Source: a virus
Reading direction: 5' to 3' (one strand)
Length of the DNA stretch: 20,274 nucleotides
Virus record (IMG/VR): IMGVR_UViG_3300046542_000254
Location: 1 to 20,274 of that record
Part shown: positions 149 through 4,107 of the stretch, piece by piece
Layout: every line of letters begins with the position of its first letter
Position numbering within the stretch: position 1 is the first letter of the stretch
Translations under genes and position numbers: made by a program
Notes under the pieces: model-generated
Database searches by the model: none
The model's input: the letters and a program-made list of their open reading frames with translations, nothing else
Told to the model about the DNA's origin: nothing

Positions 149-427
149 ATGAACACGTACAAGGGCGCGGCCGTCCTCCTCATCAACGACGGGCGCCAGT
201 TCGACACCGAAGCCGAACTCTCGAAGGACTCGTCCGGAACCTGGCGGGGCACCCTTACATTCCGCGATCAAGACCTCGTCCCGATGCTGCTCAGCGTCGA
301 GGACGGCTACCTGCTCGTCGACGGCCGGCCCGGCGATTTCATCCGCCCCGACAGGTCGGACTGGACCGTCAGCCACGGCAGCCCGTTCATCGTCCGCATC
401 CTCGGCAGCGGCGAGCCTCCATTCTGA
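149..427 (+). CDS. Conserved small actinobacterial/actinophage protein, function unknown
   Basis: This 92-aa protein starts MNTYKGAAVLL and ends ILGSGEPPF. It has no signal peptide, membrane segment or cysteines. Alternating hydrophobic stretches with Gly and Asp turns suggest a small beta-rich fold. From memory, proteins of this size and pattern (a W-G-T-L-T-F motif in the middle, a GSG-PPF-like end) are widespread as hypothetical proteins in Streptomyces and its phages. The start is the ATG at 149; no good ribosome site precedes it, and a six-codon frame (ATG at 131) ends on it in an ATGA overlap. The antisense strand is also open, but its translation is low-complexity Ala/Arg/Glu and looks like a shadow. 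A GC-rich hairpin follows at 507-533. Confidence 0.75.
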   Translation: MNTYKGAAVLLINDGRQFDTEAELSKDSSGTWRGTLTFRDQDLVPMLLSVEDGYLLVDGRPGDFIRPDRSDWTVSHGSPFIVRILGSGEPPF

Positions 428-651: not shown

Positions 652-1275
652 ATGTCGCAGAATCAGCAGCCGCCAGTCGGGCCTCCGAGCTGGATCCAGG
701 CACCGCCGCCGCCTCCGATGCCGCCGCAGCCCACCGGCCACCCGAAGTGGGCGCGTAAGCGGATCGTCATCCCTGCCGCCGTACTGCTCCTGGGCATTGG
801 CGCGGGCATCGGCGGCTCCGGCGACGACCAGAAGACGACCGCCGACGCGAAGCCCGCGCCGCGCGTCACCGTCACCGAAACGGCGAAGAGCAACGCCAAG
901 GCCGAGCCCGCCCCGACGGTGACCGTGACGAAGACCGCGAAGCCTGCCGCCGTGAAGGCGACGCCGAAGAAGGCGGAACCGGCCACGCCCGCCGACAAGG
1001 TCGTGTTCAAGGTCTGGGGTAGCGCGTCGGCCGGCGTGGACATCACCTACGGCAGCGACACTGACAACCTGCAGGGCCGCGGCCTGCCGATGACGAAGAC
1101 CCTCACCCTCAAGGACGACGCGATGTACTACGACGTCACCGCGCAGTTGCAGGGCGGCGGCGACATCCACTGCTCGGTGACCGTGGACGGGCAGACGAAG
1201 ACGGGGCACGCCGCCGGCGGATACAACATCTGCTCGGCGCAGCTCAGCGACGACTTCCTCGGCGGCTGGAGCTAG
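652..1275 (+). CDS. Membrane-anchored MmpS-like envelope protein
   Basis: A 207-aa protein. Residues 1-35 are a cytoplasmic Pro-rich tail, 38-55 a single hydrophobic membrane segment, and about 60-115 an Ala/Lys/Pro/Thr-rich linker with two VTVT repeats. Residues 117-207 form a compact beta-rich domain with two cysteines (C174, C194) that could form a disulfide outside the membrane. The layout and the ending (DITYGSD, then G-C-V-DG, then the second Cys) resemble actinobacterial MmpS-type accessory proteins; this is recalled similarity. I chose ATG 652 because GGGGGG lies just upstream and the frame before it is low-complexity. The operator-like repeats at 547-622 suggest envelope-stress or two-component control. 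A strong hairpin follows at 1301-1339. Confidence 0.8.
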   Translation: MSQNQQPPVGPPSWIQAPPPPPMPPQPTGHPKWARKRIVIPAAVLLLGIGAGIGGSGDDQKTTADAKPAPRVTVTETAKSNAKAEPAPTVTVTKTAKPAAVKATPKKAEPATPADKVVFKVWGSASAGVDITYGSDTDNLQGRGLPMTKTLTLKDDAMYYDVTAQLQGGGDIHCSVTVDGQTKTGHAAGGYNICSAQLSDDFLGGWS

Positions 1276-1300: not shown

Positions 1301-1339
1301 CGCCCCCGCCCGCTGCCATTTGGCAGCAGAGCGGGGGCG
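1301..1339. terminator. Strong terminator hairpin, probably bidirectional
   Basis: CGCCCCCGC (1301-1309) pairs exactly with GCGGGGGCG (1331-1339). Inside it, GCTGCCA (1312-1318) pairs with TGGCAGC (1321-1327). AAAA precedes it on the plus strand and gives TTTT after the hairpin on the minus strand, so it can stop the minus-strand zinc-ribbon operon as well as the plus-strand MmpS-like gene. It sits between these convergent units. Confidence 0.8.
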
Positions 1340-1409
1340 CTGTCACACGGTCCCGTCGTTGGGCGACCGGTCGGCTTCGAGGATCGGGCGCTGGTGTCGA
1401 GCTACAGGC

Positions 1410-1439
1410 GGCCCCGGCCGGGGACGATCCGGCCGGGCC
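1410..1439 (-). terminator. GC-rich hairpin at the end of the zinc-ribbon operon
   Basis: GGCCCCGGCCGG (1410-1421) pairs with CCGGCCGGGCC (1429-1439) with one bulge and a 7-nt loop. It starts 18 nt beyond the stop codon of the last zinc-ribbon gene and could act as a first terminator before the hairpin at 1301-1339. There is no T-run. I see no gene between 1276 and 1456. Confidence 0.4.
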
Positions 1440-1456
1440 TGGTCCTGCTCTGTGCG

Positions 1457-1678
1457 TCAGGGACCTGGATAGTCCGGGTCGTCTTCGGCTCGCGGCAGTT
1501 CCGTGTCTCCCTGCGACCAGTGGTTGACCCAGCCGCAGAGCCCGCAGGCGTAGCGCCCGTTCAGTCCGTGCACCTCTGCACCGCACTCACGGCATTCCGT
1601 CACCGTGATCTCGGAGCCGCCATGCGTTGCGGCCGTATCAGTGTGCGGCACGGCTTCCGGTGGCCATTCCTGCTTCAT
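1457..1678 (-). CDS. Zinc-ribbon microprotein, third of a tandem set
   Basis: A 73-aa protein with C29-x2-C32 and C45-x2-C48 (CRECG ... CGLCGW), a typical zinc-ribbon spacing, and an acidic, Pro-rich tail after residue 55. The ATG at 1678 lies inside the previous microprotein gene, overlapping it by 41 nt in another frame. No clear ribosome site precedes it, so translation is probably coupled. The N-terminal 25 residues lack cysteines and differ from the MNCPNC starts of the two upstream paralogues. The fold suggests metal binding and perhaps RNA, DNA or protein contacts. No function is known to me. Confidence 0.75.
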   Translation of the reverse strand: MKQEWPPEAVPHTDTAATHGGSEITVTECRECGAEVHGLNGRYACGLCGWVNHWSQGDTELPRAEDDPDYPGP

Positions 1679-1793
1679 GCGGCGAGACTACCCGCGGGGC
1701 AGGCGCGCACCCGCTTTGCCATCCGCAGTTACCGCACAACCAGCCTCCGCTCGGCCCCTGCGAGGTTGCTGCGCCACAGTTCGGACAGTTCAT
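1638..1793 (-). CDS. Nested zinc-ribbon microprotein, second of a tandem set
   Basis: A 51-aa gene that is easy to miss because of its size. It starts ATG at 1793 with GGAGG correctly spaced upstream, and begins MNCPNCGA, identical in its first seven residues to the neighbouring 58-aa protein. Cysteines fall at C3, C6, C20 and C23 (WLCGNCGW), with one extra at C29. Its first 65 nt lie inside the 3' end of the 58-aa gene in another frame. Its last 41 nt overlap the start of the 73-aa gene. The 20 nt at its start (1774-1793) exactly repeat those at 1886-1905. Frame, ribosome site and the conserved CxxC pairs support a real gene. Confidence 0.7.
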   Translation of the reverse strand: MNCPNCGAATSQGPSGGWLCGNCGWQSGCAPAPRVVSPHEAGMATGSRAAH

Positions 1794-1905
1794 AGCTGCC
1801 TCCTAATCCCGGGCTGATCCCGGTTTCCCATCCGCAATGGTTGGAGCAGATCCATCGGCCTCGGTTGTCCTGGTAGGTCCAGGCCCCACAGTTCGGACAG
1901 TTCAT
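1729..1905 (-). CDS. Zinc-ribbon microprotein, first of a tandem set
   Basis: A 58-aa protein with C3-x2-C6 and C20-x3-C24 (MNCPNCG ... WICSNHCGW); H23 could also take part in metal binding. The ATG at 1905 overlaps the TGA of the 42-aa gene as ATGA, and GGAGG lies 9 nt upstream. Residues from about 37 on (SYELSEL...) are the out-of-frame reading of the next gene's start. The conserved domain therefore ends near residue 36, and the tail looks like a by-product of a duplication. It shares Trp and Gly positions with the next protein. The role is unknown. Confidence 0.75.
   Translation of the reverse strand: MNCPNCGAWTYQDNRGRWICSNHCGWETGISPGLGGSYELSELWRSNLAGAERRLVVR
1774..1793 (-). repeat. Copy 2 of a 20-bp exact direct repeat (start of microprotein 2)
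   Basis: The minus-strand sequence ATGAACTGTCCGAACTGTGG is identical to the one at 1886-1905, 112 nt away. Because 112 is not a multiple of three, the second copy is read in a different frame from the gene that contains it. This marks a duplication of a zinc-ribbon start. Confidence 0.9.
1886..1905 (-). repeat. Copy 1 of a 20-bp exact direct repeat (start of microprotein 1)
   Basis: It is identical to 1774-1793 and encodes MNCPNC plus the following Gly at the start of the 58-aa zinc-ribbon protein. After the 20 nt the two copies diverge, although the Cys and Trp positions of the proteins remain aligned. Confidence 0.9.
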
Positions 1906-2030
1906 CGCCCCGCCTCCCGCATGAGCCGGTACAGGCCGCGGGCTTGCTGCTCGGACGGGCCGGTCAAGGACGGGAGCGCCAGGACGTCGACCACTGTGGG
2001 CGTTGGGTGGTGGGCTGTACCTTGCTGCAT
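1902..2030 (-). CDS. 42-aa peptide heading the zinc-ribbon operon, function unknown
   Basis: It starts MQQGTAHHPTPTVVDVL and ends YRLMREAGR. AGGAG lies 7 nt before the ATG at 2030. The stop overlaps the next start as ATGA, which supports real, coupled translation. After a Pro/Thr-rich N-terminus, residues 26-42 (PSEQQARGLYRLMREAG) should form an amphipathic helix. There are no cysteines and no membrane segment. It lies divergent to the XRE/PLD-like regulator across 166 nt and is first in the microprotein operon. A protein-protein docking peptide is possible, but nothing proves it. Confidence 0.65.
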   Translation of the reverse strand: MQQGTAHHPTPTVVDVLALPSLTGPSEQQARGLYRLMREAGR

Positions 2031-2083: not shown

Positions 2084-2196
2084 TCTGTCTTGAAGAGAGT
2101 CGGCTGATGTGCGGGACGTATCTGCCCACCGTGCAGGGACAGTTCGCCCCTCTGGGCGCTACCGTGGAAAAGGCCCAAACGTCCGCTGGGGGACTC

Positions 2197-2952
2197 TTGA
2201 ATACAGCGCTCAGAACAGCTATGGATGCGGCCGGACTGTCACCCCGGCAACTTGCCGTGCGCACGGGCGTGACGATCAAGACCGTTGAACGATGGCTCGC
2301 CGACGCGGAACTCACCCCGCACGCGCGGAACCGTGATGACGCCTGCCGGGCGCTTGGAGTTGACGAAGAAATGCTGTGGCCGAAGGTCGTGAAGGACCGC
2401 ATCAAGAGCGGTGGGGACCTGGAGATCGCCCAGACGTATCCGTACCGGTCCGCGGCCCCATCGGCACTGTGGGCAGATCTGACAGAGCGCGCCGGGCAAG
2501 ACATTCTGCTCGCTGGCTACACGGGGTATTTCCTGTGGTCGCAGGTCCCCCGGTTCTCGGAGGTGCTGACCCATAAGGCCAGGTCGGGGTGCCGGGTCCG
2601 GTTCCTCATCGGTGACCCCGAAGGCGAGGTGACGCGGCAGCGCGAGGTCATCGAAGGTACGGCCCTGTCGGTCTCCACGCGTATCCACATCACCCTTGAG
2701 CACCTCGCCCGCCTCGCTCCGGTGCAGGGCATCGAGGCGCGGCACAGTGCCCCCGAGGACGCGGTGAACCATGTCAGCCTCTCGGTGTTCCGATTCGATG
2801 ACGACGCCCTGGTGACGCCTCACCTTGCCCGCCTGGTCGGCCACGATTCCCCGCTCCTGCACCTGCGCCGCCGCGGCGAGGGCGGCATGTTCGACCGATT
2901 CGCAGAGCACGCGGAAGAGCTTTGGGGTCGCGGCGTGCCCATCTGCGGCTGA
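2197..2952 (+). CDS. XRE-family regulator with PLD-like (DUF5919-type) C-terminal domain
   Basis: A 251-aa protein. Residues about 10-62 form a helix-turn-helix domain (DAAGLSPRQLAVRTGVTIKTVERWL). Residues about 90-245 form an alpha/beta domain with the motifs ILLAGYTGYFLWS, RVRFLIGDPEGE and, near the end, FDRFAEHAEELW. From memory this matches Streptomyces regulators whose tail is called DUF5919 and belongs to the phospholipase-D-like superfamily; the HKD catalytic motif is not evident, so it probably senses rather than cuts. I chose TTG 2197 (GGGGGA upstream, giving M-NTALRTAMD). ATG 2221 is a shorter option, and ATG 2107, preceded by GAAGAGAG, a longer one. It diverges from the zinc-ribbon operon and is a candidate regulator of it. 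Confidence 0.8.
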   Translation: MNTALRTAMDAAGLSPRQLAVRTGVTIKTVERWLADAELTPHARNRDDACRALGVDEEMLWPKVVKDRIKSGGDLEIAQTYPYRSAAPSALWADLTERAGQDILLAGYTGYFLWSQVPRFSEVLTHKARSGCRVRFLIGDPEGEVTRQREVIEGTALSVSTRIHITLEHLARLAPVQGIEARHSAPEDAVNHVSLSVFRFDDDALVTPHLARLVGHDSPLLHLRRRGEGGMFDRFAEHAEELWGRGVPICG

Positions 2953-3453: not shown

Positions 3454-4107
3454 CTATATGTACTGGCGGCGGCTGGGGTCGAGGCCCATGCCGAGCAGGC
3501 CGCCGCTCTTCTTCTGCGACGGTTGCGGCGCCCCGTCCTTGCGGCAGACGAGAGCGTCCGGATCGTAGGCGGGGGCCTGGAGACTGTACCCGTCCGGGCA
3601 GGTCTGGCCGTCCCTCCCGTCCTTGCCGTCGACTCCATCCTTGCCGTCGGCGCCAGCTGGCCCCTGAGGTCCGGTGGAGCCGACCGGCCCAGGTTCGCCT
3701 TGAGGGCCTTGCTGTCCGGCCGCACCGTTGGTACCCGCGGCGCCCGTCTGGCCCACGCCGTTGCTGCCGGCAATGCCGTTCTTGCCTGGCGCGCCAGAGG
3801 GTCCGATCGGGCCGACGGGACCCGTCGAGCCGATGGGTCCGGGCAGCCCCGGATCGCCCTTCGGCCCTTGGGGTCCGACGACACTCTTGCCAGCTTCACC
3901 GCGGGGTCCGGCCACAGGCTTCCCGCCTAGAGCTCGTACCTGCTGCGAGAGCGCGGCGATGTCTGAGTCCTTCGCGTGCAGGTCGTGCGCCATGCTCTGG
4001 ATAGTGATGACGATCCACGCCAGCACCAGAAGCCCGACCGCGGCAGCCATCGCGTACCCGACGTCGACGCGACGGTGCACCTTCGCCCGGGAGCTGTGAG
4101 CCCTCAC
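3454..4107 (-). CDS. Collagen-like single-pass membrane protein of the lysis region
   Basis: A 217-aa protein. Residues 1-17 are basic, about 18-38 form one membrane helix, and 40-60 look like a short coiled coil (SDIAALSQQVRALG). About 30 Gly-X-Y triplets run from G67 to G167, interrupted near residues 73-77 and 117-121. The tail holds two cysteines (C170, C188) in a small Gly/Tyr/Asp-rich domain. The coil could trimerise the chain and start a collagen triple helix outside the membrane. The GTG start overlaps the previous stop as GTGA. Collagen repeats are common in phage fibres, but a membrane-anchored one beside holins is less usual. It may be a lysis accessory or a surface protein of the lysogen. 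Confidence 0.8.
   Translation of the reverse strand: MRAHSSRAKVHRRVDVGYAMAAAVGLLVLAWIVITIQSMAHDLHAKDSDIAALSQQVRALGGKPVAGPRGEAGKSVVGPQGPKGDPGLPGPIGSTGPVGPIGPSGAPGKNGIAGSNGVGQTGAAGTNGAAGQQGPQGEPGPVGSTGPQGPAGADGKDGVDGKDGRDGQTCPDGYSLQAPAYDPDALVCRKDGAPQPSQKKSGGLLGMGLDPSRRQYI

Follow-up and report, generated by a model that had tools for sequence, protein, structure and literature searches.

Ogr/Delta and Com (Pfam PF04606 and PF10122) are small zinc-binding proteins of phages that act in regulation. Microproteins of related design are described from archaea: many deletions among the C(P)XCG micro-proteins of Haloferax volcanii give phenotypes (PMC11241148; see also PMC10716476), and in Halobacterium salinarum the zinc-finger microprotein Brz is co-transcribed with a small protein, Brb, the two cooperating in the regulation of transcription (PMC2253796, PMC3184054). 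Streptomyces itself carries many copies of XRE-DUF397 pairs, which affect antibiotic production and differentiation (PMC6262351, PMC10364602). The locus described here shares features with each of the last three. Like the Haloferax proteins HVO_0758 and HVO_2753, its products are very small and built on four-cysteine ribbons, of which those proteins have one or two; like Brz-Brb, it places a predicted zinc-finger microprotein beside a second small protein; and like the XRE-DUF397 pairs, it has an XRE regulator adjoining very small proteins.

Overlapping zinc-ribbon genes and the constraint on each frame

The stretch of DNA analysed here, referred to as the window, is an IMG/VR virus record of 20,274 bases that encodes same-strand tail and lysis-type genes as well as one collagen-like and one exonuclease-like protein. 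Its minus strand holds four small ORFs, adjoining ones in different frames. A 42-aa ORF (1902..2030) meets gene 2 (58 aa, 1729..1905) in a 4-nt ATGA overlap (1902-1905), the tail of gene 2 overlaps the start of gene 3 (51 aa, 1638..1793) by 65 nt (1729..1793), and the tail of gene 3 overlaps the start of gene 4 (73 aa, 1457..1678) by 41 nt (1638..1678). The initial annotation had described these ORFs, overlaps and frames with coordinates that match ours exactly, although its word "nested" was loose, as the ORFs overlap end to end. The three ribosome sites it had seen are present as well: AGGAG for the 42-aa ORF (2036-2040), GGAGG for gene 2 (1913..1917), predicted from the sequence and also found in relatives, and AGGAGG for gene 3 (1799..1804), identical in relatives; gene 4 has no site of its own.

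Genes 2 (CPNCG and CSNHCG), 3 (CPNCG and CGNCG) and 4 (CRECG and CGLCG) are the only three ORFs in the 20-kb window with a C-x2-C ... C-x2/3-C pattern, and shuffling the region 2,000 times with dinucleotides preserved never produced as many as two ribbon-pattern ORFs. A profile comparison establishes homology between the ribbons of gene 3 and gene 4 (hhalign 94.7%, E 6e-8), and gene 2 is an extra copy of the gene 3 type. AlphaFold gives a confident ribbon core for gene 4 and a low-confidence model for a fused gene 3-gene 4 protein. Zinc binding is thus predicted from the motifs and the modelled ribbon fold. Every match of the four ORFs to Pfam and NCBIfam fell below the curated cut-off, gene 4 members matched curated zinc-ribbon families with E-values of 2e-4 or worse at best, and fold searches returned nothing significant, so that no family or fold match indicates a target for the ribbons. 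Kinship with ribosomal proteins was rejected because profile matches were weak and no fold match was significant, and membership of a defence system or known family was rejected because no model fits.

A hairpin 3' of gene 4, between convergent genes (1301..1339; -52.3 kcal/mol, z -7.0), is a candidate terminator for both strands; it does not appear in the T-tailed terminator consensus scan, which found no match to a sigma-70 promoter or T-tailed terminator consensus, and comparison with Rfam gave no structured RNA. Beyond the hairpin, on the opposite strand, lie a protein with a Mycobact_memb (MmpS-like) match (652-1275, plus strand) and a 92-aa protein (149-427, plus strand), both likely accessory cargo. 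The collagen-repeat protein (3454-4107, minus strand) has an N-terminal membrane-like segment and adjoins the phage lysis genes; related proteins occur in L009 and L103.

We compared pN/pS frame by frame in seven loci of the same arrangement (the window, L008, L009, L011, L020, L021 and L022); all ratios rest on few changes, and the relatedness of the loci is not modelled. Values were low for gene 2 codons 1-37 (0.22; 7/4/19 changes by codon position), the only constrained part of that gene (1795-1905), for gene 3 overall (0.30) and for the ribbon part of gene 4 (0.30). No ribbon cysteine of gene 2 or gene 3 varies across the alignment. Gene 2 codons 1-37, gene 3 and the gene 4 ribbon are therefore real protein genes. 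The 42-aa ORF gave a pN/pS of 1.79 with 6/4/1 changes by codon position, in three loci only. It occurs in the window, in the near-identical contig L008 and in one Streptomyces genome (L020, which also has the window's regulator), with unrelated sequence in its place elsewhere, and is probably not a conserved gene. Together, selection and synteny led us to reject a functional chain of four genes.

Over the 65 nt shared by genes 2 and 3, only the gene 3 frame is held (pN/pS 0.13), the gene 2 frame being unconstrained (0.95); an overprinted, dual-coding pair has both frames constrained. Relatives differ in where gene 2 stops (after 58, 76 or 114 codons), since a GGC/GGT change that is synonymous in gene 3 decides whether the gene 2 frame contains a TAA. 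Since the gene 2 tail is unconstrained and its stop is toggled in this way, the overlap is a by-product, and functional double coding within it is not supported. At the 41-nt overlap constraint is weak at both ends (0.60 for the gene 3 tail inside gene 4, 0.83 for the gene 4 N-terminus), with counts too few to decide on dual coding. The initial annotation had taken all four ORFs for functional genes and proposed a selection test of each frame; run as pN/pS, this test upheld the three ribbons, but neither the gene 2 tail nor the 42-aa ORF, which lies outside the exchanged cassette described below. Its idea of a metal-binding accessory module stands as far as a conserved accessory module of three ribbons under purifying selection is concerned, with the metal binding itself predicted from motifs and fold. 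Codon-wise selection per frame thus separates true microprotein genes from accidental overlaps.

Distribution, exchange and neighbourhood of the ribbon genes

Relatives were sought with the 73-aa protein, the 58-aa protein and an alignment. The searches matched 166 genome stretches, the best 80 of which are all Streptomyces, as well as viral contigs (L002-L019 and L100-L108). The ribbon module is conserved on plasmids, on viral contigs and in further Streptomyces genomes. Gene 4 was present in 43 of 150 evenly sampled Streptomyces genomes (about 30%) and in 7 of 247 evenly sampled genomes of the class, all seven being large genomes. It also occurs on 54 plasmid records, all from Streptomyces and several of 85-92 kb; matching viral contigs of 86-97 kb suggest that phage-plasmids may be among its carriers. 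Three queries against 50,697 phage records returned no gene 4. Gene 3 stands beside gene 4 in all four plasmid records inspected, in degenerate form in L212, and appears to be without a listed annotation in these four, for which the gene table is incomplete. In plasmid NC_019307.1 (pCQ4; L209:4250-4700), both members of the pair are missing from the listed annotation. Judged by sequence, the gene 3-gene 4 pair is the core of an accessory family essentially confined to Streptomyces. The open-licence literature yielded no account of the pair. What the analysis defines is a conserved pair of microproteins, barely annotated, in about 30% of the Streptomyces genomes sampled.

Similarity to the window around the ribbons is confined, at 89-93% identity, to 1449-1905 in L009 and L010, 1408-1908 in L021 and 1410-1907 in L022, with unrelated immediate flanks (the near-identical contig set aside); L009 and L010 also have parts of the window's phage lysis region. 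These borders indicate that genes 2, 3 and 4 form a cassette of about 0.5 kb (1408..1908 at its maximal extent) with sharp edges in unrelated settings, and its occurrences indicate exchange among viruses, plasmids and host chromosomes. L013, L014 and L023 have the regulator and the ribbons in common with the window, with a different 60-aa CxxC protein instead of the 42-aa ORF. This CxxC/CxxC protein (CxxCRVLVIWDD ... CIHC) lies directly 5' of the ribbons (L013:2622-2804, L014:3700-3882, L023:3588-3770).

Among 93 non-redundant gene 4 sequences (95% redundancy cut), three of which are outliers of uncertain membership (L190, L201 and L202), a gene 3-type ribbon lies upstream in 53: 23 with a 4-nt start/stop overlap, 20 with 5-75 nt, 6 fused and 4 unclear. 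S. atratus provides an example of the fused form. No gene 3 was detected 5' of gene 4 in the other 40, where short flanks or degenerate copies may hide some. The overlap between the two genes is 41 nt in the window's clade versus 4 nt in most other loci, and the simplest reading is that stop-codon loss lengthened a short overlap. The tree, built on few columns, requires two origins of the fusion. A further ribbon precedes gene 3 in L050 (3746-3943) and in L110 (1291-1383), where it meets gene 3 by a 4-nt ATGA overlap; because this extra ribbon is a different one, triple-ribbon chains arose more than once. The 4-nt overlap, the long overlap, the triple chain and the fusion offer a natural series for how tiny coupled genes become one protein.

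Divergent from the ribbons in the window is an XRE-type regulator (2107..2952, plus strand; the true start may lie further in), with HTH_31 above threshold and DUF5919 just below it (E 6e-4). Regulators of this type adjoin ribbons in five non-redundant contexts (the window with L008; L013 with L014; L020; L023; L104). Regulator homologues occupy 17 places in 20 genomes, only one of them adjoining gene 4, and since they are so sparse, repeated adjacency to ribbons is unlikely to be chance; shared descent of a regulator-ribbon block could explain it. In phage Alderaan the regulator lies near a Cro-like gene, without ribbons, and other gene 4 loci lie beside lipB-lipA or in unrelated places. The regulator link proposed in the initial annotation thus holds for those five contexts, but most ribbon loci are without the regulator.

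On chromosomes, gene 4 is found beside lipB and lipA and divergent from what we take to be an NsdA-like XRE/TPR-type regulator, recognised by eye with its HTH below threshold (L042, L060, L064, L067, L077, L078, L081, L088-L091 and L094). A broader association with this regulator, in 18 loci, was cut to 13 syntenic loci beside lipB, as five of the candidates were antisense ORFs of the ribbon. Genes for Ku-like DNA-end-binding proteins, also recognised by eye, lie near ribbons in L011, L020, L043 and L044.

A putative two-ribbon adaptor and its alternatives

We consider, with a probability of about 0.5, that the locus is a small accessory operon carried on mobile DNA of Streptomyces, and that its core consists of two co-translated ribbons acting as a regulatory adaptor. 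Genes 2 and 3 would be translated from their own ribosome sites, gene 2 being an extra gene 3-like copy ahead of the core pair in the window. As gene 4 has no site, its translation is probably coupled to that of gene 3, carried out by ribosomes finishing gene 3, and this coupling would supply the two ribbons in matched amounts. The ribbons may then work as a single two-ribbon unit, a reading suggested by the fusions, and use invariant residues other than cysteine (R42, Y43, N52 and a G-W-V-N segment), which point to a specific partner, to contact a nucleic acid or protein. The adaptor would tune gene expression in the lysogen or host, with the divergent XRE regulator in control where present. 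The 40 of 93 gene 4 loci without a detected gene 3 suggest that gene 4 can act alone, which counts against the paired-unit reading. We favour a regulatory adaptor over roles in metal buffering, as a leader or as a toxin; set against all of the alternatives combined, its odds are about even.

Those same 40 loci, together with the missing ribosome site of the window's gene 4, would suit an arrangement in which gene 4 is the sole functional product, with genes 2 and 3 as translated leaders setting its translation. We regard this as quite unlikely, given that the ribbons of genes 2 and 3 are constrained at the protein level, with invariant cysteines, and that gene 3 has fused to gene 4 in two lineages. 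Three four-cysteine ribbons within 450 bases could instead buffer or deliver zinc or another metal; the invariant non-cysteine residues suggest a specific partner, however, and among the clusters listed none of the recurrent neighbours is a metal transporter or chaperone, which makes such a function rather improbable. That the chain consists of four functional genes overlapping with true double coding is very improbable: the frames are all open, and ribosome sites are visible for three, but the 42-aa ORF shows no constraint (1.79, in three loci only), the gene 2 tail is neutral and variable in length, and gene 2 of L023 has ACG in place of its ATG start.

Small paired genes on mobile DNA, at times adjacent to a divergent XRE regulator related to the one in phage Alderaan, also recall toxin-antitoxin, anti-defence or immunity-type modules of prophages and plasmids. 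This is unlikely, as PADLOC has no fitting model for the locus (a weak match to a Cas12f zinc segment, E 0.058, was all it gave), the genes also occupy syntenic chromosomal sites such as that beside lipB-lipA, and homology between the two members, as seen for gene 3 and gene 4, is unusual in pairs of this kind. Returning to the regulatory adaptor, we tentatively extend it, as a possibility we hold to be doubtful, to a new Streptomyces two-ribbon adaptor family, comprising gene 3, gene 4 and their fusions, that is exchanged as a cassette of about 0.5 kb among prophages, plasmids and chromosomes and docks on a shared host target (e.g. a developmental regulator or RNA polymerase) so as to tune the programme of the lysogen or host. 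Should the pair act as a regulator, antibiotic-producing bacteria would have a portable control part in it.

Comparison with known small zinc-finger systems

Ogr/Delta and Com match the ribbons below threshold only: Ogr_Delta matches gene 2 with an E-value of 0.17 and Com matches 3 of 53 gene 4 members with a best E-value of 0.015, none above the cut-off. To our knowledge, neither has a comparable gene chain. The XRE-DUF397 pairs have the small gene 3' of the XRE gene, whereas the regulator here is divergent and not constant, and DUF397 matched none of the four ORFs, the small proteins being zinc ribbons instead. In Brz-Brb, set beside the ribbons by description rather than by sequence, the system is archaeal and the second protein, Brb, is small and basic instead of being a ribbon paralogue.

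Also archaeal, the Haloferax C(P)XCG proteins are encoded by single genes, in contrast to the overlapping chains described here, and similarity to the HVO_2753 structure (6ydh) is not significant (E 0.96). In motif and size, gene 3 (CPNCG, CGNCG, 51 aa) falls within the C(P)XCG class, gene 4 (CRECG, CGLCG, 73 aa) is slightly over it, and gene 2 has a second motif, CSNHCG, that is one residue longer. The two-finger HVO_2753 has a layout like that of the fused gene 3-gene 4 proteins.
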